The notes below the pieces were generated by a model, which did no database searches, was not told where the DNA came from, and worked only from the letters and a program-made list of their open reading frames with translations. This document shows, one piece after another, positions 1 to 63,473 of a DNA stretch of 64,000 bases; position 1 is the stretch's first letter; every line of letters begins with the position of its first letter. Where the stretch lies: positions 4,721,967 to 4,785,966 of the forward strand of contig NC_135184.1 in NCBI RefSeq assembly GCF_041146795.1, written 5' to 3'. The position numbers and the translations under genes are program-made. This DNA comes from Maylandia zebra (Eukaryota > Chordata > Actinopteri > Cichliformes > Cichlidae).

Positions 1-1160
1 ATACTTGTCTGCTCAGATGTGAAGTTACCTATTGATACAAAGTATTTCCTGTTTTCTAAGTATGTCTTGAACCAGTTTAGTACAGTTCCTGAAAGACCTG
101 CCCAGTTCTCCAGTCGTTTGAGTAATATGTTGTGGTCAACTGTATCAAATGCTGCACTGAGATCCAGTAAAACTAAGACTGACATTTTTCCACTGTCTGT
201 ATTCAGACATATGTCATTAAACACTTTGGTCAGAGCGGTTTCAGTGCTGTGGTTCTGTCTAAAACCTGACTGGAAGGCATCATAGCAGTTATTCTGTTTT
301 AAGAAGTAACTGAGCTGTTGAGAAACTGCTTTTTCGATGATCTTACTTAAAAATGGGAGATTTGAGATCGGCCTGTAGTTGTTCATTTGTGTCTTGTTAA
401 GATTGTCCTTTTTCAGTATAGGTTTTATTACAGCAGTTTTTAGTGATTCTGGAAACACACCTGATAATAAAGAAAAGTTGACGATCTGTAACAGGTCTGA
501 CTCTAAAGTCTTTGAGACCTTTTTGAAAAAACTTGTTGGCAGGACATCTAAACAGCAGGAGGAGGAGTTCAGTTGACCTAAGATGTCCTCCAGGTCTTTG
601 CTGTTAATCGGGTGAAACTGTTTCATGGTGTTTAAACAGTTTTTTGGTGGACACAGTACATATCCTGGATCTGCTGTTGATGTACCAATTGCTTGTCTAA
701 TTTTTTGGATTTTTTCTGTGAAGAATTTGGCAAAGTCATTGCAGGCCATGGTCGAATGAAGTTCAGCTGCCACTGACACAGGAGGGTTTGTTAGCCTGTC
801 AACTGTAGAAACTAAGACCCGAGCATTATGGCTGTTTTTAGTGATGATGTCAGAGAAGTAGGACCTCCTTGCACTTCTCAGTTGTAAATTATAATTGTGA
901 AGTTTCTCTTTATAGATGTCATAATGAACCTGGAGGTTTGTTTTTCTCCATCTGCGCTCAGCTTTCCTACACTCTCTTTTTTCATTTTTCACCAGTGTGG
1001 AGTTTCTCCATGGAGACTTTTTCCTTCCAGAGATAACCTTCACCTTAATGGGAGCAATAGTGTCCATTACATTTAACATGTTAGCATTGAAGCTATTGAC
1101 GAGCTCATTGACTGACCCTCTGGACAGGTCAGGTGTTAATGGGAAGACCTGGTTAAAATT
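1..1160 (-). pseudogene. LINE reverse transcriptase, N-terminal half, frameshifted from the endonuclease
   Basis: On the minus strand below about 1160 a frame open to the window edge encodes the linker and the first RT blocks of the same LINE. Recognisable pieces include a Lys/Arg-rich linker, NNYRPISNLPF, FQSGFRQNHSTETAL and [14 protein letters not shown], which carries the first catalytic Asp. The same blocks occur in the RT at 25.3-25.6 kb. It is out of frame with the endonuclease by one apparent indel near 1140-1165. The rest of the enzyme lies outside the window, so whether the element is otherwise intact cannot be seen. Confidence 0.8.
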
Positions 1161-2098
1161 GCACTACTGTGTTCAGTTATACACCGTTTTGTGATCACTG
1201 TTGTTGATATATTTATGTGGGCTGAGATTTTACTTTCAAAGAAAACACAGTAATGATCAGACACGCCCACATCAGACACAGTAACCTTTGAAATGCTCAG
1301 GCCTTTGGAGATCAGTAGGTCAAGAGTGTGTCCTCTATTATGTGTGGCCTCTGTTACATGCTGAGTCAGCCCAAAGTTGCCCAGAGTGTTACTCAGGTCT
1401 TTAGTCCCTTTGTCCTGAGGGTTGTCCACATGGATGTTAGAATCCCCAACAATAATTACACAGTCAAAATCAACACAGATCACAGACAGCAGTTCACTGA
1501 GGTCATTAAAAAAGTCTGTGCAGTATTTGGGAGGCCTGTAAACATTAAGAAACACAACTTTGGATGGGGCCTTCAGCTGTAAAGCCACATATTCAAAAGA
1601 CTGAAAACTTCCAGGAGATAGCTGCTTACATTGAAATGATTCATTAAATAAGACAGCGACCCCTCCTCCTCTCCTGCTCACCCTGGCCTCACTGATAAAA
1701 CTGTAGTTAGGAGGGGTCGTCTCGATGAGAACAGCTCCACTGTTACTTTGGTCCAACCAAGTTTCAGTTAAAAACATAAAATCAAGGCTGTGCTCAGTGA
1801 TTAAATCATTAATTAAAAATGTTTTCCCAGCTAAAGATCTAACGTTTAATAAAGCCAACTTAAGTGTTTTAGAGGCATTACTTGTCCCCTCGTGTTTGGG
1901 AGCAGTCTGTGGCACACAAGGTATGTTTACTATGTTTAAAGATCTTTTAGAGTGCAGCTCTCTGTGTTTTGACCAGGCCACATGTCTCCTTCTGTCACCT
2001 AAAAGTACAGAGATTTTAAAACCTTCTAGTAAACAGGGTCCCAGCTTCTCCTGGGAAAAGTCACCACTGCCATAATCCTCGCAGCCCGGACCCTTCAC
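1136..2098 (-). CDS. LINE AP-type endonuclease domain
   Basis: The 320-residue reading frame holds an apurinic-like endonuclease that nicks target DNA during target-primed reverse transcription. Visible family motifs, in order, are LLNVRSL (Asn about residue 85), LTETWL (Glu about 112), GGGVAVLF, YRPP, the IVGDSNIH block (Asp219, Asn221) and the terminal VSDHY motif (SDH about 280-282). All expected catalytic positions are present. The first 75 or so residues are not part of the domain. The frame ends at a stop just after the domain because of a small indel, while the RT continues in another frame towards position 1. The true start is uncertain. Confidence 0.85.
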   Translation of the reverse strand: MKGPGCEDYGSGDFSQEKLGPCLLEGFKISVLLGDRRRHVAWSKHRELHSKRSLNIVNIPCVPQTAPKHEGTSNASKTLKLALLNVRSLAGKTFLINDLITEHSLDFMFLTETWLDQSNSGAVLIETTPPNYSFISEARVSRRGGGVAVLFNESFQCKQLSPGSFQSFEYVALQLKAPSKVVFLNVYRPPKYCTDFFNDLSELLSVICVDFDCVIIVGDSNIHVDNPQDKGTKDLSNTLGNFGLTQHVTEATHNRGHTLDLLISKGLSISKVTVSDVGVSDHYCVFFESKISAHINISTTVITKRCITEHSSAILTRSSH

Positions 2099-2140
2099 AC
2101 ATCACACATCAGACTGCGGAGACAGAGCATGAAGGTGGTA

Positions 2141-2463
2141 AGAAGGAACTAAGGGGGGCGAGGCTGGGCAATGTGACTTCGATTGCTCTGTTGAGGGTGG
2201 GGCTTGATGGCGAACAGTGACTTACAAGTCACTGTTTTTAGTTTACTCCGGGATGGGGCTGGATATCGGGCGTCCTGCACCACCCATCCGATCGGGAGCA
2301 TAGCGGAGCCATTTCTGCACTGCTTGGGCGAAGGCAAACTCAGAAACTGCATTTACCCCCACCTGCTGAGTCAGGCCATCTAGGGCAAAAACAAATAAGC
2401 AAAAAAATAAAGAGAAAAAAAAGAGAGGCCCAATTAGAGCTTAAATATGAACAACCTCTTGTA
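2141..2463. other. No gene recognised; possible LINE 5' leader
   Basis: This is a GC-richer stretch than its surroundings, directly upstream of the minus-strand LINE frame. Short open frames exist but none resembles a known protein. It may be the element's 5' untranslated region. Confidence 0.4.
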
Positions 2464-2479
2464 AAAAAAACAGGGAGAA

Positions 2480-2737
2480 TACTTTGGGATATATTATACA
2501 TTTGTTTATATTATTTTTTTTTTCTCTTTCTTTCCCTTTTTCCTTTTTTTTTTTCCTTTCTTTTATTTCACAGCCGAAGATACATTTTTGGACTCATTTC
2601 ACAGCTTAAATGTACTACTTAACCTCAATGTACAGATCATCTGTAATCCTTCTCTTTTCTTTCTGTCTATATGTATAATATATATGTTGATGTTTATGTG
2701 TACAAAAGGAAACCTCTTAATAAAAAAGACATTGTTT
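2480..2737 (+). mobile_element. Short A-tailed retroposed insert with 16-bp target duplication
   Basis: The 16-bp sequence AAAAAAACAGGGAGAA is found at 2464-2479 and again at 2738-2753. The 258 bp between start with an AT- and pyrimidine-rich stretch and end with AATAAA-like signals just before an A run. This layout fits target-primed insertion of a 5'-truncated retroposon on the plus strand. The parent element is not recognised. Confidence 0.55.
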
Positions 2738-2764
2738 AAAAAAACAGGGAGAAAGCCTATAAAC

Positions 2765-3204
2765 CCGCGTTCCCCAACCCCCGGGCCACGGACCGGTAAC
2801 AGAGGCCCGGATGTGAAATTTATGAATAGGGTTTAGGGTTAGTTTTTTTTTTTTAATCGTTAACTCTGTTACCCTGGGTCTTTTCCCGTGTTATAGTTGT
2901 GTCTCTTATTTTGAAAGAAATATTTACAGGTTACCATAGTGACCAGAGAGCATTAAGGGGCGGAGAGGATGATGTTACTCTCAATGTTGTTGGCGCATTT
3001 CAGGAGGACGCTGCTAATAAAGTTGCGCAATTTTACTGTGAATTTGCTGAATTTTATTATTATATTTACAAAATACCACAGTTTTTGTCTTGGTCATATC
3101 ATTTTAATTTGTTGTATTTATCCACGACAACATGAAGGCCGGTCTGTGAAAATATTGTCTGACATTAAACCAGTACGTGGCACAAAAAAGGTTGGGGACC
3201 GCTG
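2765..3204. mobile_element. Non-autonomous hAT (Charlie-like) element
   Basis: Imperfect terminal inverted repeats (left CCGCGTTCCCCAACC, right reading inward CAGCGGTCCCCAACC) bound 440 bp. A perfect 8-bp target duplication, CTATAAAC, lies at 2757-2764 and 3205-3212. TIRs containing GGTCCCCAACC with 8-bp duplications are typical of Charlie-type hAT elements. No transposase is encoded. Confidence 0.85.
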
Positions 3205-3212
3205 CTATAAAC

Positions 3213-4188
3213 TAGTAGGCTGATTAACATGAAAGTCACAAGGCTGAAATCAGCAAGCTACTGCCTCACTTTGTTCACCGGTGTGCTATATTTCATGATC
3301 TGCTTGGCTGCAGGACTAAACATGGGGCCTGAAATTACACACATTGTCCTAAGCATTTTCCTGTATCCCTCAACGAGGACTGGGCTAAGGTAGAAATAAG
3401 TCTGCCAAATTTATTTATTTTTTGCTTCCAAGGTGCCACACTACTTTGTTTTGTTCGCAGTCATAGTTTCCGGTCTTTCAATATTCTTTGGAGAGTCCCA
3501 AGTACTAAAACCCTGGTGATAGCAGTCCTTTAAGAGGGTCAAGAACCCACTAATGATCATGTATCTCATCACATGAAAGGTGACTTTATCAAGGTGTGAA
3601 AAAGGGTGTGTCATTATCAGCAGAGGTTTCAGGTGAAACCATTGTGAGACCTTGCCTCACCCTATTATGTTACCTATTGAGATCAGCTAACGTGAGATGT
3701 TGGTGGGCTTTAAGGTGCCTGTGAAGAGACTTCAAGAAACTCTGAGTGTTATTAGCTGAAAGCTCAGCATTTGCGGCTTGGCTTGTCCAAAGAAATTTTT
3801 GGTTGTCACTCCAATTCAGCGGTCCCAAATACATAATTAAACTGTCAAGCTGAATCATGAAAAATGCCAGTGTGATGGACATAACTAGAATTTTTTTTAC
3901 CAACAAGGTGATTCCCACAGAGCTATTAGCTGCAAATTTGGCACGTCTTAGCATTGTGTGCCAGGTATCCTTAAAAAAAAGGGAAGAAACTGAACAAATG
4001 GAGGACAAAAGAAGTGGAAGACCTAAAACACTATCTCCAGGTTAACAGGACATAAAAGTCATGTTCTCAAGAAAGAGGCAAAAAATCTAGCAAAGACCTG
4101 ACACAGGAAATGACAGATGCATGTAGCACTTCAATTGATCCACTCTATTGGTTCACTGAAGGCTCATAAAACTACAATAAACAATAAA
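3213..4188. other. No gene supported; old repeat remnants
   Basis: A stretch around 3520-3680 resembles sequences near 11.05-11.18 and 12.04-12.12 kb, 30.95-31.1 kb and 35.5-35.6 kb (a GTGTGAAAAA block, a CATTATCA block and a 'cctcaccc' block), so it is an old dispersed repeat of unknown class. Sequence at about 3850-4130 has the look of a decayed Tc1/mariner-type coding region, but stops in every frame prevent a firm call. Confidence 0.35.
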
Positions 4189-4194
4189 ACTTAC

Positions 4195-5377
4195 CAAAGA
4201 TGCACTTGCAGAGCACTGTCTCTTTAAATGCCCTTTTTTGCTTGGTCTGGTCCTTATTTTTTCTCCCAGTCCAGTTAAGTCCAGAGGCCAGCTCATTTGT
4301 AATGGCATAGGCTAGTATACGACGGACTCGCACCTCCAGTGTGGTCCCTCCAATCAAAGAAAAGCGTCTCACCTATCAAAATATTTTCAAAAATTGAATT
4401 ATTGTGACTTATGTTTTAAATGTGTATGAATATGCTTGTGAGTTGATATGAAATAATTGAAAGAGACAATGTTTTTTTTTCCCAATGCTTAATTTTCCAG
4501 AGATAATAGGAAATATTTTGGTTAATTCCTATTTGTTGGATCTTCCGATGATAGCATGTTGATGTATATTCAAGCAGGACATACAGCAGCAGGCAATTTT
4601 AAGAAGTTGAACCAAATTGGACAATTTATAAAGTTCTGAGTTACAAAAGTTACATAAGCTTTAAGTACCTACCATTGTTTTATTTGCTTCCGGTAACTGC
4701 AGAGTTGCCTCTGCATTGTTCAGCTCATCCATATTATGTAAAGGCAAATCCAGAGGCAAAACGCCAGCATCAACAGGTTCATTGCTGCAGGATTGACGGA
4801 AGGCTCTGAACTCCTCACGGAGGTCCCTGACTTCTCTGGTCAGCTCTGTCACCATAGTTAGCAGTTTTTGGAAGGCTGCATCTGTTAAGAAGAACAATAA
4901 AACTGGCTTGTGATAAACCAAATCAGCATTGTGATGAGAAAAAAACAACTATATCCATAAGTTATGGTTTCACATTTTGATTTCAAGTTTAAGTAGTTCA
5001 ATCAGGTCAAACTGTTTACAAGTTTATCCCTTTTGCATGTAGATGAAATCCTATGTAAAATTTCAAAGTACCACATTTTAGAATTTGCCTTTTAAAAGTT
5101 GACTCACAGAGTCTCTGGAATCTAAAAAATCAAAATAAGATGATATTTAATAACATAAATTAGTGTTTCGATGGTAAAATTACAATGAAATTGTGATGAA
5201 ACTAATTTAATCAAAGCATACTTTCATTATTCAACGCAGACTCTATTTGCTGGGGAGGTTGTATAGTTGTGTAGGTTGGTGTGTTGGGCTGGAGCGGTGA
5301 AAGGAGCCGGTAGCTGGCCAGGGCATCGTGATGGTTGCTAGTAGTGGGTTGGGAGGCAGACTGCAAACTGGTGGAGG
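4195..5377 (-). CDS. Three-exon gene fragment with a DUF4806-like C-terminal domain
   Basis: Three minus-strand exons splice in frame. They are 5377-5222 (Pro/Thr/Ser/Gln-rich, after a pyrimidine-rich acceptor), 4881-4673 (a heptad-like helix with LLTMVTELTREVRDLREEF, then an acidic segment with LPLHNMDEL) and 4372-4195 (LIGGTTLEVRVRRIL, TNELASGLNWTG and a Lys-rich AFKETVL block). Donors are GTATGC, GTAGGT and GTAAGT, and the phases agree across both junctions (1 and 0). The last exon matches what I know of DUF4806 domains: a conserved GG, a helix, then a 'LNWTGR..K..F' core. These occur in fish multicopy genes that may be transposon-linked. Function is unknown. The first and last exons are not found, so this is a partial gene or a relic. 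Confidence 0.6.
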
Positions 5378-5519
5378 CTGTTCAGAAAAATGTTTAAAAA
5401 ATAAAAGCTTACATAAAATTTATCTACAAAGGTTCATTTCCTCACACACACTAAACATTACAATATACTATACCTGGGGGATTCGGTCATCTACAGAGGA
5501 ATTTCCTATTTGAAGACTT

Positions 5520-6295
5520 TTTGTCAGGTTTCAGAGCCCATCACAGTACAGAGATGGCTTTAGTGAAGGTCTCAAATGATCTTCTTTCGTCCCTGACAGT
5601 GGACTCATGTCCTGCTACACCTCAGTGCAGCATTCAATACTATTGGCCATAGTATTTTATTACAGTGATTAGAACATGCTGTAGTTATTTAACTTACTTA
5701 AACAGCTACAGCGCTTCAGTGTTTTGAATTCTCTCTCTCTAATAGACTCCAATTTGTTCGTGTAAATGGAGAGTTCCACAGGGTTCTGTGCTAGGGCCAA
5801 TTCTGTTTACATGCTTCCTATAGGCAATATCATTAGAAGGCAAAGATGGCATAACGCACACCAATTTGTTAAACTGCAGGAATGTGTTAAAGACATGAAG
5901 ACCTAGATGGCCTTGCATTTTCTGCTGCTCAGTTCATATAAAACTGAGGTTATTGTACTTGCCCCTTAAAAATCTTAGGAATATGGTACCAAACCAGATT
6001 ATTACTGTGGATGGTATTACCTTGCCCTCTAGTTGCACTGAGGAATCTTGAAGGTATTTTCAAAGAGTATATGTCCTTCAATGTGCATATTAATCAAATA
6101 TTAGGGCTGGATTGCGTGACCCTTCATACTGCCTTAAGATATTCTGCAATATGCAGTTAGGCTACCGGGGGTTTCCATGATGCACGTTCTTTTTCACTCA
6201 CTGTATTGTTGTGGAGTCTTTATCTTACAATATATACCACCTTGAGGCAACAGTTACTATGATTTGGCGCTAAATAAATAAAACTGAATTCATTT
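5520..6295 (+). mobile_element. Degraded L2-type LINE 3' part
   Basis: Scattered RT-like words in shifting frames (a 'GEFHRVLC.GQF' version of the GVPQGSVLGP block near 5770-5810 and 'KTEVIVLAP' near 5940-5965) lead into a tail with GATTTGGCGCTAAATAAA near 6265, which is the common 3' end of fish L2 elements. Many stops and indels show an old copy. Confidence 0.6.
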
Positions 6296-7177
6296 GTTTT
6301 TTCTTGGTCGTTGTATGTATGCCATAGGGCCTCTATTGTCTTAATTAAATTACATAGTATCAATTAAATATATCTTTAGACATTATTTATTAGTTTAATG
6401 ATTTGAATTTGTTACAAAGTTTAATTTTCAGCTAACTCCAAGTCTGCCAGAGTTTTTTTTTTTAAGGGTAAAGAAAGTTATCATAGCAACTATCAACTAA
6501 AACACAGAAGCTGCAGATACTGTGATCACAAGTTTGTACTTTGAAGCTAAATTTGAGGCTGATCGAGTTAACTTCAAGTTCAAACCTGGGTTTTCAGTAT
6601 TATGAAGGTCATTCACATACGCTGGTATGGTAACTTGTGGAACTAATCCAGGCCTACAGACCAATCCCTTCTTTGGTCTACAGATGGTAAGAGGGTTCCA
6701 AGTTGTGATCTCCCATAAAGTCTGCTACAGCTTATCCTTGTATTTTTACATGCTGTGTGAAATGTGCCATTTCAGCTGGCTACATAATTATAACCTTCAT
6801 TTCCCAAATTCAATATGTAATAAGTTCTTAGTAACTAATAAATGGGTAAAGTACAATAAGCCCAAAAAACAGATTTTTATGAAGATGCAATTTTCTACAT
6901 ACAATTTTTTTATAGCTGTGTGCCTCAAAATTATAAATGGAAAAAGAAAATTGTCACAGAATCCTTTTGAAGCTCTCGAAATTTATTGCTAGTATGTTTA
7001 TAGCTTCATTTTTGAGATGCAATCATTTTAAATGCATTAACAGCATTAAAAACTAAAACAAAATGTACATGTGAAACATTTGCAAAGTTACAATATATCA
7101 AAATAAACAATTTTCAACAGTAATCAAAGTTTTAAGTGTCAGGGAAACTTGTATACAGAGAAGCATGAAGTCAAATT
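6296..7177. other. No gene seen
   Basis: AT-rich non-coding sequence downstream of the minus-strand piggyBac gene. It probably includes that gene's 3' untranslated region; a minus-strand AATAAA lies near 6980. A plus-strand frame at 6627-6992 has no recognisable domain. Confidence 0.5.
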
Positions 7178-9187
7178 TTAATTTTCAGTACCCTTTAAGG
7201 AGTTGTGATACAGCTTGTGACAGTTCCTGTCAACGATAACACACAGAGCCACTCTACATGCCTCACACATGAACGGAGTGCACTTCCGACACAGTTTGCA
7301 CTTCCTTCGCCCCTTTGAGGCTTTATTATGGCCAGATGCCCCTTCAACAATGGCAACAGGGATGTGCTGATACCTCTCTGGGACCAATTGTAGGGGAACC
7401 TCACAGAGCTCAGTTATCAGCTGTTCCAGGAAGGCCTGGTGCTTCACAGGCTGCTCCTCCAGTCTGCCACACAGCTCCTTGCTGATTAAGTAGCTGTTTG
7501 TTACAGCAATGTCAATGAAATGATATAGCACCCTCACATACCACGCCCTGCTCTTTCTCCATGAGGAATAGTAGCCAATCAGCTGGTCTGACAGGTCAGC
7601 TCCCACCATATAGCTGTTGTAGTCTTTCACAGCCGATGGCACCGGCACCTCGACTACTCTGCGTTTTCCACCAACCTTACACATCCTTTTCAGAGTGTCC
7701 CCTGAGAAGGCAGTGTGCATGGTGGAGCACACACTCACCTCCCTTGTGTCCATCCACTTGATGAAAATGAGGGCTCCCTCTCTGATCCACCTGACTGTCC
7801 CTCTTGGAGATTCTTTGGTCAAGGAATTATCTTTGGTTTTTGGGGTGCCGATTCTCGTGTCCCGAAATGTGCCGCATGCTCCGAACCCCAGGTCGTGAAG
7901 GTGGCGGAACAGTGCTGGGCTGGTATAAAACTTATCACAGTAAATGTGATATCCAGATCCCAGGCAGTTTTTGTTGACGAGAGACACCACTGCATCAAAT
8001 GACAGGCCCCTCCCGGTTGCCAGAGTGGACTTCCTTGTATAAACCTTGAAGTCAAAAATGTACCCCGTGTTGTCAGACAACACAAAAAATTTTATCCACC
8101 TCTTTTTTTGCTTCATGTTTTTCTTTAGGGCAGTTTTGGCTTTGGTCGGTACCATGCGCTCATCCACAGAGAGGTTTTTCTGGGGATGGTACACCGCTTT
8201 GCAAGCTAACCGCAAACTGTCATACAGGGGGCGTATTCTGTGCAGGCAGTCATAATCATCGGTGCCTTTTTTGCGGTCGTTGAGTTCATCTTCAGCAGGG
8301 TCACTCATATGAATGTTCCAGGTGATGAGGAGGAACCGGGTTCTCGACATTACCTTGCTAGGATACGGCGCATAAAAGATGGAACTGACACGCCAAAAAT
8401 TCCTGATATTTGGCAGCTTCAGAATCCACATGTACAGTGTCAGGCCAATGTAGCGATAGAGTTCAGCCTCTGTGAGCTCAGCCCATTTGAACTTTTTACC
8501 TGCAGCAATATTTTTTGCTGCATTTTTGTTTGTGTTTGCACACAGTGTTTTGACAGCGGCCCAGTTAAAATACATCTTGAAGAGCTTAGATGGAGATGGA
8601 TTGGTCAGATACTCTGAAAGAGGTAGTTGGATACCTGGCGTTCTCGTGGGCAGGAAATGTGGCAGGGGGTGTGGCAAGTTGTCGGGGTCCTTTTCACTTT
8701 TCCAGGCAGCTGCATCACCAGAGAGTGGCTCTGACCTAGAGCGCTTGGCTTTGTTTGCTGAAGGCCAACTCCTCTGACTCCTTAATCTTCTTCTGCCTCC
8801 AACCAGAGTAGTGGCGGCTTCGGTTTCTTCTTCTTCTTCTTCCTCCTCCTCATAATCATCATCACTTCACACAAAGAAGTTGCACAATGTTAGAAGAATT
8901 CACCATGAGAATAATATAATGATGTATATTTAATGCTGCATAGTTATTTTCTCTAACTCAGAAACAAACAATATTTCATAAATGTATACGTACGTGTCAT
9001 AGTATGGATACATTTCTTCACTCAAGTCAGTTTCATCATCACTATCAGCAGAGTCCAGCCCAGAGGAGTGGACAGAAAACCCATCTTCGTCCGGCACTGT
9101 TACAGAGTCAGAATCTTCGTGTTTGAGGGGTCCATTTTCTTCTAGTTTGATAATATCGTGTGTGTCCGGACCTGTGGGAGAGCGCAA
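7178..9187 (-). CDS. piggyBac-type transposase, complete, one intron
   Basis: Exons 9187-8994 and 8864-7178 join in frame (donor GTACGT, acceptor GAAG, 129-bp intron) to give about 626 residues, the usual length of PGBD4-like transposases, which cut and paste DNA at TTAA. The N-terminus is acidic (a Glu run at the start of exon 2). The DDE_Tnp_1_7 core follows with all three catalytic aspartates in context: SVDERMVP (Asp about 299), YCDKFYTSP (about 375) and GADLSDQL (about 488). A C-terminal Cys/His motif (CKLCRKC, CEAC, CHKLYH) closes the protein. No stop or frameshift was seen. The ATG overlaps a good splice acceptor (pyrimidine tract, CAG at 9174-9172), so the first exon may instead start at 9171 and be spliced to the ZNF exon upstream. 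Flanking TIRs were not convincingly found; the element may be immobile or domesticated. Confidence 0.9.
8865..8993 (-). other. piggyBac intron
   Basis: This 129-bp intron is bounded on the minus strand by GTACGT and a 'TGTGTGAAG' acceptor. Splicing restores the frame (Thr codon split 2+1) into an Asp/Glu-rich segment. Confidence 0.75.
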
Positions 9188-9501
9188 AAAGTCTGTGGTG
9201 AGTGTGGGCTGTATATTTCTAATGCTTTCTAAGGTCTGCTTGGGTCCCGATGATGTAAATTTTTGTCATAACACAATAAGCAGAAGGGGCCGTGCCTGCT
9301 GGCTCATTATTTTGTTAAAACCGTATAAGTGTAGTCAGTATATTTCACACACTGTTGTAAACAGTGAAAAAGCGTTCTCGGGTTAAGGTGAGCCTGACTA
9401 TGAGCCTGGGCTCAACCAAGAGGTAAATGCACTATATATCCACTACACGATCCTACATCAATCATATTTTCCCTATTAAGACTGTTTTAAGTTTTATATA
9501 C

Positions 9502-9763
9502 CTGTGCAGTGCAAGTCTTCCTCACGTTTCCAAATGTTATCCAGGACTCTGAACCGCTCTTTCCCGGTCCAGACGAAGATTTCTTCAGACTCCTGCTTCA
9601 CTATAACCTTCGCTATTTCCTGACCGGTGCAGACTTCCTCCTGTTCCTCTTTAATCTGTGGTTCTGGACCATCCTCGCTCAGACCAAAGTTCCTCTCCTG
9701 GTTATGGACCTGCGGGTCATTCAGACTCTCCTCTTCCTCACACTTCATATTGCTGTAGGGGAT
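9502..9763 (-). CDS. Gene D acidic N-terminal ZNF exon
   Basis: This exon carries the acidic leader typical of fish C2H2 genes: a Cys/Glu-rich start, QERNFGLSEDG, PEPQIKEEQEEV, VIVKQE, FVWTGKERFRVLDNIWK. The acceptor (TTTAAG) precedes 9763 and the donor is GTATAT after 9502; entry phase is 0 and exit phase 1. It can start translation at the ATG at 9748. It is nearly identical to the exon at 33270-33534 on the other strand. Gene D's own first exon (about 12.8 kb) has lost its ATG and carries an in-frame stop. No finger exon follows; instead the piggyBac gene lies 330 bp downstream with a phase-1 acceptor. The exon's normal role in the family (possibly protein contacts) is unknown. Confidence 0.7.
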
Positions 9764-9772
9764 CTTAAATGA

Positions 9773-10127
9773 TAAGGGGACATAACAAGAAGGTTACTAA
9801 TATGATGACAGATGTGAAGGCACATCTGAGCAAATATATTCTAGCAAGTCTGTACACTGTGAGCATGTTGCTCACAACTTTATTAGTGCAAAAAAAAAAA
9901 AAAAAAAACCCATCAATGTATTTTCACTTAAACAAGCAGCTGTTTTTATGTGCGTTAAAGTTATATAAAAATTTAACAGTGCAAATGCAAATTCCTTGCT
10001 GACAGTTTCACCAAAAGGCATTTCCAGTGGAAATTAGCCGACATATCCTCAGCATAACCATGTATAATATCCACAAAACGCAAAAAGAGGTTATACAGAC
10101 ACAATACGGTAATATTATGTTCAAGTA
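9773..10127. other. Intron-like sequence of gene D, no gene
   Basis: The first 120 bp are paralogous, inverted, to the sequence just upstream of 33270. A poly-A run lies at about 9891-9908. Confidence 0.5.
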
Positions 10128-10680
10128 AGACTGGGCGATATGACCCAAAATTCATATCTCGATATTCTTTAGCTGGATGGCGATATACGATATATATATC
10201 TCGATATTTTTTAAAGCCATAAAGTAAGAACAAAAAGAGAGTTCTTAGTCAAAACTGCGTCCCAAATCTCACACAGGCACTTTTATTAACATACAGCACA
10301 GATGTACAAGAAATAAATACTCAGAAATAAATTATCAGCATTTATTAAATAATAATGCTTAGTTTTCTGTCTTCATTTATGTTGGAAGTGGTAGCAGAGC
10401 TGTACGTTTTAATTAGTTTCAAAAATCTCTCAGTCAGAATATGTCATGTCATGTTTAGGTGGAAACTAGCGAGCTAACTTCCAGTTAACTTGTAACTCCG
10501 TTAAATTTAATAACTTCTGTTTTCATGGTGTAACTTAATTGTTACACCCGGTAAAGCAGCAACGCTGATCATTTTATTAAAGATGAAAGAATTTAGACTG
10601 TTTTTAACTCTCAGTGTTCCTTTGACTTTGGGACCTGAAGGGGATGGAGTACCGCAATATGGATTTTAGGCCATATCGCC
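10128..10680. mobile_element. Non-autonomous element with GGGCGATATG termini (hAT-like)
   Basis: The ends read AGACTGGGCGATATGACC on the left and, inward from the right, AGGGCTGGGCGATATGGCC, with many CGATAT words between. An end of the same type recurs at 10.78 kb, so elements may be nested. No exact target duplication was found, so the superfamily is by resemblance to hAT-like elements that are frequent in fish. Confidence 0.55.
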
Positions 10681-11181
10681 CAGCCCTAAGAGAGCCAAAT
10701 TTGCGGCTCAAGTAACATAGACTACATTGATATAAACGATATTGTCACATCTCATATAAAAATATATCGATATATTTTAAAACTCAATACATCGCCCATT
10801 GTGAAGCACAGCACGTATCACTCCACAAGGCTCCTGCTTACGATGCCGTAATGCTTCGACAATCCATCAAGCGGTGCGGGTTCATAGCTTAGCAAAGTTG
10901 TACTAAAACATTTGACACATTTTCGAGCGCCGTGTACCACATAAAATCGTTTCGAGGTCAGTAAACACAACCAGAATTCAGTTGCAGCTTCTTAACGTTG
11001 CCCAACATTATACCAGTATTACCGTGAATGGTATGATATGGCCCAGCCTTAGTCCCAGGTATTTAAAACCTAGTGGGAGCTGTCCATTAAGAGGATCGTT
11101 GACCCACTTTAGGGACTACTTAAGTGAGTCAATGATCATTGACAAGCCATGGTGTGAAAAAAAAAGGCTATGGGTCATTAT

Positions 11182-12033
11182 TAGGGCTGCCACAAACGAT
11201 TATTTTGATAGTCGACTAGTCACCGGATTAGTCGACTAATCAGATCATCATCCATTGAACGTAAAAGTACAGCTTATTGCACCAGCAGCATCTGCTCTTA
11301 TATAACTATCATTAGCTTACAGCTTTAAGTGTTTAAGGTCTGTGCTAACTAAAAATAAAGACAAGATGATAGTTAATTGAATTCTAATTAAATGTGCAGA
11401 TTGTTTCGGTGGAGTTTAATAAACTCAGCCGATTTACTCAGGAACAAATAAAATACTGAAAAAAGCCAAACAATAACATTTTTAAGTTATCTAAGTGACT
11501 TGTATATGTTTAACCTGAGTAGGGCGGTGGGTTTGAAAACGATCTGCCGGGAGTCCGGTGCTCTCATGGCCCCCGGCTAGCTATCGAGCTAGTGGGTAAC
11601 AGACGTCTCCGAAAACGTCGGAGCGCTTTTGAAAATATGTGGTGTCTTGATAAACTGAGCAGATATTTGAGGTTTACACAGCTACATTCTCGCCTGAAAA
11701 TATGTTAAACGTTTATTTTGTGACCCAGAAAGAATAATAAGAGTAATATTAAAACTAACTAGCTGCCGCCATTGTTGACAACTGCGCTGGGCCGCGCTAT
11801 GAATTCTGGGACACAGTTTCTTCTTCTTCGGGGTTTAACGGAAGCTGGCATCCTTGTACATGCAGTGCTGCCATCTTCTGTTTCAGTCCGTTATTACACT
11901 CTTAAATCCTGCTACTTATTCCTGCTTTTGGGATCTTACAAAGCTTCAAATGACGCGTCGACTATTAAATCAGTCGTCGACGATTTTGATAGTCGACGTA
12001 ATCGTGACTAGTCGACTAATCGTGGCAGCCCTA
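11182..12033. mobile_element. Non-autonomous hAT element, 852 bp
   Basis: TIRs TAGGGCTGCCAC(A/G) bound the element, with sub-terminal GTCGAC palindromes. A perfect 8-bp target duplication, GTCATTAT, lies at 11174-11181 and 12034-12041. It sits inside the older dispersed repeat also seen at 3.5 kb. A partial copy of the same family lies at 46.56-46.81 kb. Confidence 0.9.
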
Positions 12034-12041
12034 GTCATTAT

Positions 12042-12770
12042 CATAAGAGATTTTGTGTGAAAGCATTGGGAGACCCTGGCTCAGCCCATCATGTGCCTAC
12101 TGAAATCACCTCACCGGTTTAGACATTTCTGCTCAAAGATAGTCGTTTACCCCACATATCCACATCACAATACAACCCCTTCACACGTGTGTGACGCGCG
12201 CGCACGCACGCACACACACACACACACACACACAAATGGCGAAATGTAAATTATGTAACTGGGTAAAAACAAATGTTTTTTTCTCTTTTTCTACGTTTTC
12301 AATTCCGTTGCGTGCTTTGTCTCCACACTACTTCCTGTTATTGGGGGAGCGCGGTGCGCACAGTCCCTTGGCCTTACAGATCTGCAGGTCCGCAGAGATC
12401 TGAGCAAAAGCAAATACTGAGCGAGGGGCTGTGTAAATGGATAAAAGCAAACACTGAAATAAGTTTTTGCACGCAGCAGTGAATTTTGTTCGCTAAAAGT
12501 TAGCCTTTCTTCGCTCAAAAAAAGTTTTTCCTCAAAAAGCAACACTCGTGCTGGCAAATTCTTTTTACGTGCGCTCAGACGAGTGGCACAAAAATAACGC
12601 CATAGTAGACGGTGAGTAAATCTAAAAACATATCTTCGCTTTTCTTTAAAACTCCCGCCTTTGTGCTCAAGCGTTCTTTTTTACCAGTGGTTGTCGTTCA
12701 TAAGTCCTGCAGGGAAAGACGTAGGATACACGTTTCGTAGAGGATCTTTTAACATGACAGTTTTACATAC
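12042..12770. other. No gene; includes a CA microsatellite
   Basis: A (CA)n tract with a GCGC-rich head lies at about 12195-12234. The rest (12.25-12.62 kb) looks like an unclassified repeat with internal near-palindromes around AGATCTGCAG and AGAGATCTG. Confidence 0.5.
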
Positions 12771-12875
12771 CTGTTATCTCAGATATCCAATAGTCTGCAT
12801 TCACGGATGATTTCTTCATCGAGCTTTAGTAAGGTTTTAGATTTCATCGCCTGCTGCACCAAGTCTCTCCGTAAA
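12771..12875 (-). pseudogene. Gene D first exon, decayed
   Basis: The minus strand carries the end of the fish ZNF first exon: EEII.ECRLLDI followed by an in-frame TGA where a CGA (Arg) is expected, then AACAG and a GTATGT donor at 12770. The usual ATG context (GCAGTATGAG at 29.09 kb) reads GCAGTAGAAT here, so the start codon is gone. Any protein from this locus would have to start in the exon at 9763-9502. Confidence 0.6.
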
Positions 12876-12902
12876 TTCTACTGCGCCGAACAGCGATAAC
12901 AC

Positions 12903-12916
12903 CGCGTCACTTCCGT
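12903..12916 (-). promoter_or_regulatory. ETS/CRE-like promoter motif of gene D
   Basis: On the minus strand this reads ACGGAAGTGACGCG, just upstream of exon 1 and downstream of a GAAGAAG run. The same motif precedes gene E (24665-24678) and, with one change, gene C (29055-29068). CGGAAGT is an ETS-family core and TGACGC is CREB/ATF-like. The role is inferred. Confidence 0.5.
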
Positions 12917-15290
12917 TTTTCTTCTTCTTCTTCTTCTTCTTCATTGTGTTTCCGGCAGGCTAGTCGGAAACTTGTACTAGCGCCCTCCCAATGATTCAAG
13001 TTAAGCACTGTTTCATTTTACATCGCGGGTCTCATAAAGATAATGATGAGATAATGGGTTTCATGTCTTGTTAGTTGTTTCCCTCCGTGCTCTGTGCGCA
13101 GGCTGCCCCACTCACCCCAGCACTGTTAGTATGCAAATCAGAGCAGAGCAAAATTATGCAGCCAATCTCTATCGTCACAATGTAACTGACAGTGAATTAT
13201 TTTAATGTTTTAATTTTGTATTTGTTTTAAATATTTTTTTAATTTTTCCTTTAGTTGCGAGACTTTGTTTTAAACTTGGTGTAGCGGAAGTAACGCTCAA
13301 CACGGACTGTGCCTAAAGTGGGTGGACCGCAGGTTTTGACTCTTGCCACCGCCTTGAAGCTGGACTCAGGTATATAAAGAACACATGTGAAAGTATTGTG
13401 GTTAAGCTAAATGCAATTTATCAACCTACCTTTAAGGTGAAGTGCAGCTGTGAAGAACGCTACGGCAGGCGTTTAATGTGACTCTGTTAATTTGAGTTTC
13501 CATGAAATGAATGTCTTATTTTATTCATACTTTATTTTGCAAATTTATTTGAGAATTAGGCCATTTAATTAAGATAGATTTTATGTTGTTGGTTGTAAAG
13601 ATCTGGATGGAGATTTTTTTTTATTCTGTATTTCTATTTTTCAGTTTTATTTTTCAAGACTTGATTTATTGCCTTTTTCTTTGTAACTTGGCCTACTTTT
13701 TAAAGTTTTGTTAATATTCACATTTCTCTCTGCCCCCTCGCCTGTCTAGAACCGGCTCAGATGGTGTTACTGATCTGACAGAAGTAAACAGTAAATCACA
13801 GTTTCATACTCCTAAAGAAACCAAGCAGTAACTGTCTGCGGATTTTGCGAAAACTTATTTGATACTCTTCTGCAGTAGAGTCCGAAGATAACATGATCCT
13901 GAGAATGAGTTTGTCTTCTATGCTTTGTAAGGACCTTGAGTAAAGGTGCCCACAAATAAAGTGCAATAATAAATTATTATTATTATTATTACTACTACTA
14001 CTACAGAGTACTGTGTGAGAAATTATTCTTAAAATAGAGATAAAGACTAACCGACTGTCACCTCTGTAACATAAAACCACTGTCTTTGAGTAAGACCTGG
14101 CTTTTTCAATGTAATTGAGATCTCTGTATCACCTTTCAAATTAATGCAGGCTATTGGTTTGGTCTTCTGAGGTGAATAAATTCTAAAATATCAGCGAATT
14201 TATTTCATACTTCTATTCTTTTTTCTGATGATCAAAACCCCAATTTTGAATATGCACAGACTCTTTTCAATCAGTGTATCATTAATTCTTTAATTTTCCA
14301 ATGGACAATGAAACCAGGTCTCGTAAAGCAGACAAATTGAATTTTAAAATTAAATTTGTTCCAGCAGCCCTTTTTACATTTCATATTTTTGATCCAAATC
14401 TAAAATTGAAATAATCAAAACAAGTACTATTTCCTTTTGATAGGCAATTCAAAATCAAATAATATATATTTGTTCTTTGATTGTCAGTTTAAAAAAAAGA
14501 AGAGCGAGTGATCCACTGATTCAGTCACTGTTACAATATGCCTGTGCTCACGTTTTGAATCCAGCAGTTTACAGGGAGCATTTAATAGTGAATAATATTT
14601 AATATTAAAAACAAACTCAGATACGTTTAATCTTCCTGAAGTTTTTTTTTCCCCAGATAGACTTTTTCTTTATTGTATGTGGATAAAAACTTGTTTGAAT
14701 TTATTTGTGTTTATGTGAAGACATGATAACTATGCCATTTTCAAATTAAAAAAACATTTCAATACGTAATTTGCATTTAATACTAATGGTTCAAAGAATG
14801 TCAGGCTGAATGGTGGGCCCCCACACATTTTCACCTCACCAAATCTGACCTTCTTTGCAAAACGTTTGGACACACCTGTCTTAGAGATCACAGTTCAGAA
14901 AAAGAGTTGGTCTCAAAAAGATTTATTTAAGGTTTTATGTAAACTTTATAAACATAACTTTTAAGTGCATATTGAAATTTAAGCCTACATCACAACATAT
15001 GAATTGATAATGACTCAATATTATTTGTCTTGTGTGTGTCAATTTACAGCTTCTACTCCTGTGTAGTAAAACCTCTTTATTGAATGACAGAGAAATCTAG
15101 GCTATTAAACAAAAGCAACAAGCCAAATAAAATTCATGCTTTATTTTGTACAACAAAGCTTAGTTTAGTAAAAACGATTAAGAACTTCAATCTACAGCTG
15201 TTTTAAGCTGTTTTATATGTTTTTAGTATCACCTCTACAACTTAAAAGAATAACAAAAGTACAAATACAGACAAATGTAAAATTAGCCGG
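12917..15290. other. Intergenic, no gene seen
   Basis: AT-rich sequence without a convincing coding frame. An (ATT)n/(ACT)n microsatellite lies at about 13972-14005. A short word near 14865, AAACGTTTGGACACACCT, resembles Tc1-type transposon ends but has no partner. Confidence 0.5.
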
Positions 15291-15299
15291 GCTTGTTTG

Positions 15300-17540
15300 T
15301 CCCAGTGATCACAGTGGCTATGATGTCAGAGGCTTGACCCTGGTAGGGTCTCCCAGGCAAATTGTCCCTGTGTGAGGGGCCAGCGATGAGCGATTTAGGT
15401 GACCCCTTTGAAGCAAGGAAAAACAAGGGACCAGTTCACCCTGCCCAGGACATGGATACTGGTGCCTATCCCTATGCCAGGCCTAGGGAGGAGGCTTAAG
15501 AGAGAACACCTGGTGGGCACGCCTTAACCCATGGGGCTCTTGCAGACTCCGCACCTGCAGAAAGCACTGTAGAGGGCGGGTGCAATGCATTTTGGGTCGC
15601 AGTGAAGGGCAGAGGCTCCAGGAGTTGTAACCCTGGCTCATGGTAGGAAAACTGAAGTTGACAAATAGAATGTCACCTCTCTGGTAGGACATAAATCTGA
15701 GCTAGTGCATGAGATTGAGAGGGACTGGATATAGACATAGTAAGGTTCACCTGAATGCATGGCTCAGGCGCTGGAGACGTTCCAGACTCTTCCAAACTCT
15801 AGATTCCCCATACACAGAAAGGCAACAGGCAGGGATGGGTATACTAATATCCCACCAAGTTCACTGTCTGTACAATAGGGTTTTCCCAGTGGACGAGTGT
15901 GTCTTTTCCCCTGCACCTTTGGGTCAGGGAACAGGTCCTGGTCCTGATTATAGGTGAATGACAGTTCAGAATATCCAGCTTTATTAAAGTCAGTAGGTGG
16001 GGTGCTGGAAAGTGACACATCTGGACAATTTATTTTCCTATTTTTAGACTTTAGTGTGCAATATCATGTAGACATGAACATTAGAGGGGTGTGATTTTTT
16101 GTGATGTTTTGTCACTGGACTTTTGTGCCAACCACCATGTCTGAGCATAAGTTATTCGCATAAGTGCATGTGGTACTAGGACACCCCAGGTCAAAGGTCA
16201 AGGATAGATTTTGTCAATGTTTTATTGGTGGTCTTGGACACATGAGTGAATAGAGGAACAGCGCTGCCAACTGATCACCACCTGGTGGTGAGATGGATCA
16301 AGTAGCAGTTTTCTGAGGAAGCCTGGGCACATTGAGTCTGAGTGGACCATGTTCTGCACCTTCACTGTTGAGGCACCTGCACAGAGCTATGGCTGGGAGT
16401 TGCCTGTTATGGGGTAATCCCTGTACAGATGGTGAATAACCAAGGTGAAGGGAGTTGTCAAACTGAAAGAGCTCCTGTGGTTATCCTGTGGGATTCCAAA
16501 GGAAACAGATTCCACTGGGCCAAGCAGAGTGTGGCTCTGGAAGAAGCTGAAACAAAATCTCTGGTGCAGGAGTCTGGTTAATCCATGAAACAAGACTTTT
16601 GATCTCCCTCAAAGAGATTCTGGCAAACTACCAAGTGACTCAGGAGGGCAAAGTGGTGCTGTACTCATATGGTGTATAGTATGGGTGGGGTGCTGCTGAC
16701 TTGAACTGAGGAAACAAGAAATAGACAACCTGAAGGATTTTCTGAATCCCACTGACATGCTTTCTGTACATGAAGTAGAGTCTGGAAACTAGGGGGATGA
16801 CTTGCCCGTAACTGGGGCTGAGGTCATTGAGGTAGTTAAACAACTCCTTGGTGGCAGGGCTGCTGGGGTGGATGAGATTCACCATGAGTTTCTCAACACT
16901 CTGAATGTTGTGGCACTTTCTTGGCTGACACACCTCTCTGCTTTTTCAATCTAAGGCTACAACTCTGACTGGAGTGGTAGCCTAAGAAGGGGGGACTGGA
17001 AGATGTGCTCCAATTACAGAGGCAACACATTATTCTGACTCCTGGAAAGATCTATGCCAGGGTACAAGAGAAATGACTGTGTTAATCGAACCACAGGTTC
17101 AGGTCCAGCTCTTTATCCTCATAGGAGCATGGGGTATCTGGCTTGTTGTCATCTGGTCTTTAAGTGATGACGTGATGAACCCTGCTTTTAGATCCTAACT
17201 GCTCCATGTTTATCAAGGCTGTTGTGTTTTTAACACGTTTTAAGGCTTTGTATCTTGTTCTATGTACACGACTTAAATAATAAAAATAATGTGGCATGCA
17301 GCCAATTGAGGTGGCTCAGACATCTGAATAGGATGCCTCCTGAGCTTTTCCTAGGTGAGGTGTTCCAACACAAAGGGGCCCAAGGGCAGACCCGGGCCAC
17401 ACTACAGAAATTATATATTATCGCTAACCTAGAACCTAATGCCTTGGTGTCCCCCAAATGAGCTGAAGCAGGTTGTCGGGATGAGTGATGTCTATAATTC
17501 TCTGCCTAGACTGCCCTAACATTTGGCCCTGGAAAAGTGC
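15300..17540 (+). mobile_element. Degraded LINE (jockey/RTE-like fish family)
   Basis: This plus-strand copy is spread over about 2.2 kb. Recognisable pieces are an endonuclease end with 'CTGATCACCACCTGGTGGTGAG' (translating to TDHHLVV), a linker 'ATTGAGTCTGAGTGGACC', an RT start around 'VDEI.HEFLNTLNVVALSWLTHL' near 16870-16935, and the C-terminal 'LR.LNRMPPELFLGEVFQ' block near 17310-17365, followed by a GGATGGATGG tail. This order is that of a very abundant teleost LINE. Stops in every frame show that it is dead. The clade is not certain. Confidence 0.75.
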
Positions 17541-17785
17541 CATAAAAGGGATGGATGGCTGTAAAATCAGTGTTTTCCTTATACAAAAAAAGGCTAACAA
17601 TTGGAATAAACAATTCAGAGAGTAGAGTTAATTACTATTCTAGACAGGATATATACCATATTGACCTGAAAATGGTATGAGCGCTTCCTTCCGGCTTTGA
17701 AGTGATTTGGTTCCTCATGAACATGTGCTCCACTATTAAACTGTTCCACCTAACAGCTTTCAAACATTATCTAAGAAGGAAGCTT

Positions 17786-24678: not shown

Positions 24679-24762
24679 TTTCCTTCTTCTATTGCATTTA
24701 CAGCAGACTAGACCCATCAAAGGTGTGTTGCTGCCCTCCTTACACAAAAAAGTCCTGTATTT

Positions 24763-26691
24763 TTGTGCTTCAAAGCTCTTTTCGACAGCAACCTTTTTTC
24801 ACGGCGGAAAAAGGATAAACTGCATGTATCATTTCAAATTCTCAAAGACTGCTGGCATCGCTACCAGAACACTGTTAAAGAGGCAAAAAGGGAATATTTT
24901 GCAAATATTATTTCTTCCAACTGTCATAACCCACGTGTGTTATTTAGGACCATTGACACTGTTCTTAATACTCCTTTGAATGTCTGTTTGGAAGTTTCTC
25001 CTGAGATTTGCAATGATTTTCTGAACTTTTTTATTGAAAAGGTTGTCATCATCAGGGCTCTTATCACAGCTCCTGACTCTGACCCCTCTGTCTCTGTCCC
25101 TTGCGCTGCTGTTTTCACTCAGTTTGAGCTTGTGACGCTCTCCTCTTTAGAGGATGTGGTTCGCCATATTAAGCCCACAGGTTCCCCACGGGATCCTGTC
25201 CCTCCACAATTCTTTAAAGAAATTTTTCCTAGTATACAACAGTATGTCCTTGACATTATTAACAGCAGTCTGTCTTCTGGTGTGGTTCCTGCAAATTTCA
25301 AACATGCAGTAGTACAGCCACTGCTTAAGAAACCTGGCCTTGATCACACAGTTTTAGCGAACTATAGGCCTATTTCCAAGCTGCCTTTAGTCTCCAAGGT
25401 TTTAGAGAAAATTGTTTTTAGTCAACTGAAAGATTTTCTAGATGAAAATGGAATCTTTGAGGTTTTTCAGTCAGGTTTTAAAACCCTTCACAGCACAGAA
25501 TCTGCATTACTAAGGGTTTTTAATGACATCCTTCTGGCATGTGATTCTGGTAACCATGTTGTTCTTGTCTTGCTTGACCTAACTGCTGCCTTTGACACAG
25601 TAGACCACAATATTTTAATTTCTCGATTACATGATGTAGTGGGTATTGGTGGCACTGCACTCAATTGGTTTAGGTCTTATTTGTCAGATAGAACTTTCTC
25701 TGTCAGCCTTCTCGGTTACGAATCGTCTTCTGCTCCTCTGTCATGTGGTGTCCCACAGGGCTCAATTTTAGGGCCACTGCTCTTTTCTCTGTATCTACTG
25801 CCTCTGGGTTCTATCCTTAGAAGGCATGGGATCTCATTTCACTGTTATGCCGATGACTGCCAAATTTATTTGACACTAAAACGCAAGGATGCCATCTCCA
25901 TAAAACCTCTCTTGACATGTCTAGATGACATTAAAGCTTGGTTGGCTCGAAACTTTTTAAATTTTAATAAAAAGAAAACAGAAGTGTTGGTGTTTGGACC
26001 CAGTGGTCCCTGTGAGTCCTCCTCTGTTGTTTTAGGATCCCTGGAAGTCTATTTTAAATCTGTTGTTACTGACCTTGGTTTTAAGTTGGACAGTGATTTT
26101 AAATTGGACAACCAAATCAGAGCAGTGGTGAAGTCCAGTTTTTATCATTTAAGGCGACTGGCAAGACTAAAATCTTTTCTTTCGAGGCAGCACCTTGAAA
26201 CAGTGATCCATGCTTTTATTTCTTCCCGCCTGGACTACTGTAACTCACTTTATGTGGGGGTCAGTCAGTCATTGCTCTCACGTCTGCAGCTGGTTCAAAA
26301 TGCGGCTGCACGACTCCTAACAGGAACTCGAAAAAGAGAGCATATAACCCCCGTGCTGGCCTCTCTGCACTGGCTGCCTGTGTCTTTTAGAGTTAATTTT
26401 AAAATTCTTATGTTTGTTTTTAAATGCCTACACAGTCTTGCCCCGCCTTACCTCTCTGAGCTTCTTCATCCCCACATACCCTGTCGGTCTCTCAGGTCAG
26501 CTGACCAGCTGCTCCTGGAGGTACCGAGATCCAGGAGGAAGCTCAGAGGGGACAGGGCCTTCTCTATTGTGGCTCCAAAATTATGGAATAATTTGCCCAT
26601 GCATGTTAGAGAGGCCCCTTCACTGTCCACTTTTAAATCACGTCTTAAAACCCACTTTTATTCCTTGGCTTTTAACCTCAGTGAGACTTAG
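24763..26691 (+). CDS. LINE reverse transcriptase, uninterrupted 642-codon frame
   Basis: The frame contains [27 protein letters not shown], the Asp box [14 protein letters not shown] (about 271-283), [13 protein letters not shown] (about 329-341), the catalytic CYADD (361-365), a thumb with [18 protein letters not shown], and the C-terminal [25 protein letters not shown] and LHWLPV blocks. All polymerase motifs are intact, so the insertion is recent by sequence. The listed start is probably not native, since the real protein would begin in a missing endonuclease. Confidence 0.85.
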
Positions 26692-32793: not shown

Positions 32794-33269
32794 AATCCCA
32801 TAATCAAAAAAGTTAAACACATTCACTTCTTGCTACTTTTCAAGAACCCTGTATCAAGTTACATTGTGTTACCATCTGTTCTTATGTATTGTTTTACTGC
32901 TGTCCTATTATTATTATTTTTTCTTCAATAATGGTTGAAAAATTGTTACCATTTGCTTTAATATAAATTTTAATTCATGTAATTACTGTTTTATTTCAGT
33001 ATACAACAGTGAAAATCAAACTGCCTTAAATGAAGCTGGCATCAGCAATTGAATGTTGTGCACTCTGAACTTTGTCAATAAAAATGTGATAACTCGAGTC
33101 ACTCACACAGGTGCTCTTAAACATTTGTCCAATTTGTACACTCCAAATTTCACTCACATATGTGAGCAACATGCTCTCAGTGTACAGACTTGCTAGAATA
33201 TATTTGCTCAGATGTGCCTTCCTGTCATCATATTAGTAACCTTCTTGTTATGTCCCCTTATCCTTTAAG
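32794..33269. other. Intron of gene C, no gene seen
   Basis: The last 150 bp are paralogous in inverted orientation to 9764-9890. Confidence 0.5.
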
Positions 33270-33534
33270 ATCCCCTACAGCAATATGAAGTGTGAGGAAG
33301 AGGAGAGTCTGAATGACCCGGAGATCTATAACCAGGAGTGGAACTTTGGTCTGAGCGAGGATGGTCCACAACTTCCACAGATTAAAGAGGAACAGGAGGA
33401 AGTCTGCACCAGTCAGGATGTAGTACAGGTTGTAGTGAAGCAGGAGTCTGAAGAAATCTTCGCCTGGACTGGGAAAGAGCGATTCAGAGTGCTGGATAAC
33501 ATCTGGAAACACGAGGAAGACTTACACTGCACAG
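33270..33534 (+). CDS. Gene C acidic N-terminal exon
   Basis: The exon carries the family leader (ATG at 33285; LNDPEIYNQEWNFGLSEDG, QLPQIKEEQEEV, FAWTGKERFRVLDNIWK) between a TTTAAG acceptor and a GTATAT donor, with entry phase 0 and exit phase 1. It is intact and nearly identical to the gene D exon. Exit phase 1 fits the finger exon at 38047. With exon 1 disrupted, its ATG is the only plausible start. Confidence 0.65.
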
Positions 33535-33867
33535 GTATATAAAACTTAATAGTTGTTGGGGGCGTTTTTCTCTGTGCACAGACACACTCTACCTCTCCTT
33601 TTATTCTTCAACAAAAAACATGTATGGTGCTTTTTGAATTTGCTTAACTTGCTGAACAGAATCAACTTTTGGGAACCAGGTGCAGAACGACTCTTTGCTG
33701 AACAGAAGAGTGTTCTGGATTCTTTGTGGTCATGAGGCTATCACAAGACAGCAGTTCTCTTGTCCTTATTGCCAAAGCTTGAGAGCCCAACCAGTCAACC
33801 CTAAGATGGCTGATTTGCATCCTTCTTAGCTCAGATTGCATAAACCAACATTTTTTGATATCTCGGC

Positions 33868-39500: not shown

Positions 39501-39898
39501 GGAGCTTATGTGTCTCTGACTACATTAACAGGTACATTTGGTAAATGTAACTTTTTCTGACTGTTTTGGCTTTTTACCCAATATAAACAGTATAAACAAG
39601 TTTTGTTTTTTTTTGTTTTGTTTTGTTTTTTTTAAATCCTTCTAGGAAGGCTGAAGATTTTTGAAAGCTCAGTTTCTTTGTTTCCATATGGACAAGAAAA
39701 ACAGAGTTTGTCTCACAACTTTAAAGGTGTGCACCTTTACCACCTTTATCTGACACCATTCCGTTATTATTTGTGGGCTTTTGATTGACATTTGATGGAC
39801 ATTTCTTCACGTTGCTTTGGTTCGGTGTCAACAGTGCTTGAGATCACATGAGTCTTAATGTAATCAGAACTATTTGCCAAGTTATTATAGGTGTTAGG

Positions 39899-63253: not shown

Positions 63254-63473
63254 TTCCTACAGTCAGGTTTCCGACAAAGAGGCGGAGAGAGTCGGGGTTA
63301 GTAGAAGTAAACCTGCTAGGGGGCAGGTTAGCTTCACGGAGTGTGTCATCATAGTAACTCACTCAGGATTAATCTAAACTCACTTTGTGAAACTGAAAAC
63401 CCAGAGTTTTCGTTAACTCACGGTATGCTTACTCAGAGTTTGCACTAAACCGGCTTCCTGAAATAGGGCCCAG

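Follow-up and report, generated by a model that had tools for sequence, protein, structure and literature searches.

PGBD1 carries a SCAN/KRAB-type leader on a piggyBac transposase. In CSB-PGBD3, as PMC2268245 describes it, an intronic piggyBac provides an alternative 3' terminal exon, and its authors suggest that acting as an 'exon trap' is how piggyBac elements survive. PMC3459987 describes a palindrome 3 bp inward of the terminal repeat for the T. ni piggyBac as well as for PGBD3/MER85; PGBD3 depends on it for binding. Fusions of host sequence with transposases, e.g. KRABINER, have been surveyed in tetrapods (as cited in PMC12062965). In Astatotilapia calliptera one piggyBac family comprises 315 high-quality copies, and PMC11753138 includes the proposal that piggyBac drove a piwil1 duplication there. 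A description of the fusion reported here was not found in the open-licence literature, as far as it was searched.

We analyzed a window of 64,000 nucleotides from Maylandia zebra (assembly GCF_041146795.1, contig NC_135184.1, positions 4,721,967 to 4,785,966 of the forward strand). We consider it fairly probable that a piggyBac element in the first coding intron of a leader-BEN gene acts there as an exon trap and provides one leader with two alternative, probably DNA-binding, ends. The relevant features are given below in window positions.

9753..9754, minus strand: AG of a probable acceptor, 4 nt 5' of the ATG (CCCCTACAG followed by CAATATG)
9502..9748, minus strand: coding part of exon 1, an acidic leader of the C2H2-gene type, residues 1-82 (residues 1-82 of P0065 equal its translation)
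9383..9386, minus strand: left-end TTAA target site of the piggyBac element, CCC next, palindrome at offset 16
9370..9382, minus strand: putative 13-nt terminal repeat CCCGAGAACGCTT, left end only, starting with CCC
9350..9366, minus strand: subterminal palindrome CACTGTTTACAACAGTG, 7-nt arms and 3-nt centre, 3 nt inside the putative repeat
9171-8994, minus strand: exon 2 (178 nt), within the piggyBac element, its later part resembling the transposase N-terminus in other fish copies
8864-7178, minus strand: long form of exon 3 (1687 nt), the terminal exon with the piggyBac transposase domain and cysteine-rich tail
8635..8864, minus strand: short form of exon 3 in the BEN-ended isoform, residues 143-217 and one base, with internal donor CAG/GTATCC starting at 8634
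6982..6987, minus strand: AATAAA poly(A)-type signal 190 nt 3' of the transposase stop (pattern match only)
5222..5377, minus strand: exon 4 of the BEN-ended isoform, phase 1 to 1
4673..4881, minus strand: exon 5, a long helix by prediction (coiled coil) and the first part of DUF4806
4195..4372, minus strand: exon 6, core of the DUF4806/BEN-like domain
2243..2379, minus strand: exon 7, last part of the BEN-like domain with the stop codon

From the ATG at 9748 to 9502, exon 1 comprises 247 nt and ends in phase 1 at the donor CAG/GTATAT, while the acceptor CTCTCCCACAG ends at 9172 ahead of exon 2. Joining exons 1 to 3 (247 + 178 + 1687 nt) yields 2112 nt and 703 residues with a single terminal stop. 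The donor, the acceptor and the matching phases that the initial annotation had pointed out are all present in the sequence, and its stop-free frame of 703 residues was reproduced. It was right about the leader and transposase exons and missed four further exons at 5377-2243. Two of its positions need correction: there is no splice site at 9763, where it had set the boundary of the leader exon, a probable acceptor ending at 9753 instead, and the supposed ATG at 9187 reads TTG. No ATG occurs on the minus strand in 9240-9172, and the first in-frame Met within the transposon-derived part is M136 at 9013. With the probable acceptor CCCCTACAG directly 5' of the ATG at 9748, another exon may precede the leader exon in the gene.

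A protein search with the joined frame gave 136 proteins at E <= 0.001 out of 7988 scored candidates, and 120 of them were listed. The Oreochromis aureus protein P0001 (707 aa), annotated as piggyBac transposable element-derived protein 4-like isoform X1 and belonging to a cluster of 28 member sequences, aligns with 100% of the joined frame, with 93% identity, and extends across both junctions; as an independent record, it indicates that the joined frame is not a product of chance. A zinc-finger-type leader in frame with a piggyBac transposase, as initially proposed, exists as a gene model in another genus, and at the level of sequence and gene models the leader-piggyBac fusion is real in at least two genera. 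Five products were assigned to the gene (P0001, P0002, P0065, P0091 and P0098). Besides these, no match exceeds 72% identity among the matches listed, so that no close mobile sister copy is found among them. In a tree of 22 proteins, the window and O. aureus sequences are paired with a support of 100/100, apart from the other fish copies.

The second ending is formed by exons 4 to 7, as in P0065 (Maylandia zebra, 444 aa). The seven-exon join is identical to this protein at 444/444 residues, and P0065 therefore probably represents no independent species, its model probably being derived from the same genome as the window. All introns of the join are GT-AG with consistent phases. Exon 2 and the short exon 3 together form a stretch of 408 nt that is entered and left in phase 1. 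The models P0065, P0091 (O. aureus, 394 aa) and P0098 (Pelmatolapia mariae, 450 aa) have the leader, exon 2 and the beginning of exon 3 in common and then leave the piggyBac; at the gene-model level, the later host exons are thus present in another isoform, and the internal donor and the exon order are common to models of three genera. P0091 is without exon 4, and P0002 exits the transposase at a different internal donor, with its exon ending at 7374, and is out of frame when it enters exon 5.

Searches with the leader and with DUF4806 gave 7 matches of 11 candidates and 32 matches of 952 candidates, respectively. Among these 7 and 32 matches, this leader is combined with a DUF4806 end in P0065, P0091 and P0098, all of which include the piggyBac cassette, and no leader-to-exon-4 product without piggyBac sequence was found; the order of events is therefore inferred. 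The predicted fold of DUF4806 matches BEN domains by VIA-align, with Pfam assigning the family; Foldseek E-values are weak, and the absence of other folds from the Foldseek list is uninformative. The BEN-like ending is probably a DNA-binding end, judging from this predicted fold. Four PDB sequence matches of P0065, all weak (E 0.044 or worse), were taken as chance.

The order of elements between exons 1 and 2 is TTAA, CCCGAGAACGCTT, TTT and CACTGTTTACAACAGTG. TTAACCC occurs six times in the window, counting both strands, and one other occurrence (50214, plus strand) has a nearby palindrome, at offset 24. In 8 Mb of dinucleotide-matched random sequence, a perfect palindrome with 7-nt arms at offset 14-18 was found at 0/486 TTAACCC sites. 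The left end of the element is putatively placed at 9382, and 119 bases separate it from the end of exon 1 (9502). Since this end can be identified within intron 1, the element excludes the leader exon and includes the acceptor and both transposase exons. The layout is that of an exon trap, with a host exon outside the element, the acceptor at 9172 inside and phases that match. The intron that separates exons 2 and 3 is apparently part of the element too, because residues resembling its translated start are found in P0014, another cichlid's copy. The TTAA at 9490-9487, near which the homology with a leader copy at 33 kb ends, was the first candidate for the insertion point and was rejected: it is without a CCC end, whereas 9386 has both CCC and the palindrome.

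No convincing pair for the right end emerged from the comparison of 20 upstream with 48 downstream TTAA sites, and a mirror of the 13-nt end with <=3 mismatches was not found in 7180-2200. Since the right end was not found, this piggyBac copy is probably immobile. The published left end of the cichlid PiggyBac-1 has no match at up to 3 mismatches within the window, and the element therefore probably belongs to another family.

The window also contains long frames resembling, by eye, pieces of non-LTR retrotransposon reverse transcriptase at 3-2101 (minus strand), 24712-26691 (plus strand) and 58924-59400 (plus strand). A frame at 62801-63256 (minus strand) has no Pfam match and resembles what we take to be the N-terminus of a Harbinger-type (HARBI1) transposase.

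The leader is 64% identical to the leader of P0121, an M. zebra C2H2 protein encoded in the window, and leader-like stretches adjoin the window's own finger genes. It had been suggested that the locus lost a finger exon or had it replaced by the piggyBac. However, the sole match of a C2H2 pattern scan of the minus strand in 1-17700 is the cysteine-rich tail of the piggyBac, Pfam detects no C2H2 finger family in P0065 or P0001, and the other annotated 3' end is the BEN-like DUF4806. As no C2H2 finger was found nearby on this strand, the loss of fingers, like their replacement by the piggyBac, is unsupported.

A second copy of the leader exon and its flank, with 92.6% DNA identity, is located at 33161-33549 (plus strand) and is followed by a TRIM coiled-coil fragment (PF25600, 33859-34479), not by fingers; it is possibly an orphan leader or another fusion. 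The non-coding flanks at 9749-9876 (minus strand) and 33161-33284 (plus strand) differ by 2 mismatches and a 4-nt gap in 128 nt. Between the two leaders, dS is 0.175 and dN 0.068 over few sites, a dN/dS that is hard to read because the upstream flank is more alike than this dS would imply. That the flanks resemble each other more closely than the coding exons do points to constraint or gene conversion. Against the copy at 22 kb, dN/dS of the leader is 0.73. The C2H2 gene at 22314-17786 (minus strand), which encodes P0121 (LOC101482136), has a second leader-like stretch ahead of its fingers, and leader-like exons of the C2H2 cluster, some with stops, are found on the plus strand at 38064-39544, 45288, 46005, 54878, 56119 and 59860. 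The piggyBac-free DUF4806 proteins P0123 (O. niloticus) and P0134-P0136 (pipefish) have leader-like N-termini with matches among the leaders of the window or those of C2H2 proteins, and leader-BEN fusions may be recurrent in fish. In P0136, one finger-like stretch lies between leader and DUF4806 (21.1 bits vs the Pfam cut-off of 25.2).

The consensus for SUMO attachment is psi-K-x-E. Five motifs of the form [VILMF]Kx[ED] occur in residues 1-101, one of them at the initiator Met, and none in residues 102-703. When residues 1-142 were shuffled, five motifs were obtained in 0/5000 trials; for the leader alone, with three motifs, P was 0.0038. P0001 of O. aureus and P0098 of P. mariae have five motifs each. 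Among 12 other proteins, the leader-bearing P0123 has four and P0134-P0136 have two each (one of them in the leader), the DUF4806 proteins P0124, P0128 and P0132 have none, and the transposases P0003, P0004, P0008 and P0014 have 0-1 each. The three motifs in P0144, a DUF4806 protein without a recognised leader, count against a link between SUMO and the leader.

In the mechanism that we propose, an upstream promoter would drive leader transcripts, and the element-borne acceptor would capture them. In one outcome, these would read on to the transposase stop and the poly(A)-type signal, giving 703 residues; in the other, use of the internal donor would give 444 residues, consisting of the leader, the piggyBac N-terminus, the coiled coil and the BEN-like domain. 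The leader with its psi-K-x-E cluster would recruit SUMO-dependent repressors, and the target would depend on the ending: piggyBac-type ends if it is the transposase, BEN sites if it is the BEN-like domain. The predicted folds make it likely that the chimeric product binds DNA, and as the function of the locus we infer a SUMO-dependent two-headed regulator. That the insertion itself made such a regulator, with a SUMO-recruiting leader sent by splicing to BEN sites or to the terminal palindromes of its own transposon family and with an exonised transposase N-terminus lengthening the BEN protein, we regard as unlikely; if true, the fish would employ a piggyBac to police piggyBacs.

The state of the transposase part bears on a rival explanation, namely that the BEN-ended isoform alone works, the piggyBac N-terminus being a kept cassette, the remaining transposase exon a decaying relic and the 703-residue form a by-product. 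We consider this rather unlikely. The transposase domain scores 225.5 bits for DDE_Tnp_1_7 (cut-off 22.4), and piggyBat 9c0f and piggyBac 6x67 are its only PDB sequence matches and also top the fold search. D376, D452, D565 and D568, which by their motif we take to be the catalytic Asp residues, are kept, as are the tail C664-H695 and its cysteines; their retention and a frame that is open in two genera speak against a relic. Conservation was assessed in an alignment of 95 sequences (the window plus 94 of the 116 listed non-BEN matches, 22 shorter than 480 aa having been dropped). Of its 72 near-invariant columns, defined on 93 others, the window changes three (D297N, G398W and G419R) and O. 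aureus likewise three, two of them common to both. These changes would fit decay, but they are not extreme, since 11/95 sequences have more, with fewer than three in 79/95. Identity between the window and O. aureus is 77/82 in the leader, 55/60 in exon 2 and 71/75 in the shared exon 3; it is lower in the transposase-only part (457/486, with a 2-residue gap in the window) than in the DUF part (170/175 aligned), as expected for a relic. The open frame itself is not significant, as a neutral simulation of the window-O. aureus divergence kept it stop-free in 20-26% of runs. Substitutions within the transposase part are, however, slightly more conservative than a neutral model gives (P 0.04-0.07), and those in residues 1-217 are not (P 0.51-0.54).

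Two further explanations have less in their favour. Gene prediction might have chained neighbouring repeats and exons where no stable leader-piggyBac or leader-BEN protein exists. The models are indeed products of automated annotation, and repeats and leader copies abound in the window, yet the same internal donor and exon order recur in models of three genera and every intron in the window is GT-AG with consistent phases, which makes an artefact very improbable. Alternatively, the leader might belong to the transposon family, having been picked up at an earlier time and moved with it, and not be a host exon trapped by the insertion. With the right end not found, the limits of the element are fixed on one side only; against this, the left-end signature sits between exons 1 and 2, and the leader is present in 7/151 proteins compared, five products of this gene and two C2H2 proteins, and in no other transposase. 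We give this last explanation hardly any credence, and the trapping of a host leader by an intronic piggyBac is the reading that we retain.

The probable exon trap at this locus offers a fish fusion whose anatomy can be read in one window, with a host-type leader, a TTAA junction, an element-borne acceptor and two competing ends. Cichlids allow asking whether a captured piggyBac end still finds its relatives and whether the leader silences what is found.

Among known systems, PGBD1, initially cited as the precedent, is alike in having an N-terminus of the regulator type on a piggyBac transposase; the cichlid gene differs in being without SCAN or KRAB and in having an alternative BEN-like ending, and CSB-PGBD3 is closer in that its later host exons are still in use. 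KRABINER-type fusions, as far as PMC12062965 presents them, likewise have a host regulatory-type N-terminus spliced onto a transposase, while the cichlid case involves a fish, a piggyBac, an acidic leader instead of KRAB and two endings. Cyprinid FiNZ genes share a short acidic N-terminal exon ahead of a DNA-binding exon, but in the account of PMC10547256 a 28-residue cyprinid sequence is joined to fingers, whereas the cichlid gene has none. With CSB-PGBD3, as described in PMC2268245 and PMC3459987, the locus shares an intronic piggyBac, an in-frame acceptor, an alternative 3' end and later host exons that, in the gene models, are also used, and the left end has the same layout of 13-nt end, 3 nt and palindrome (PMC3459987). 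For CSB-PGBD3, transcripts and selection are reported in these sources; the cichlid locus is known here from sequence and gene models. The cichlid host part is a C2H2-type leader, its other end is BEN-like, and the element seems to have an intron of its own. Finally, because the donor within the transposase exon places a piggyBac cassette of 408 nt, in frame, into the host product, the insertion altered the other product too, unlike in CSB-PGBD3.
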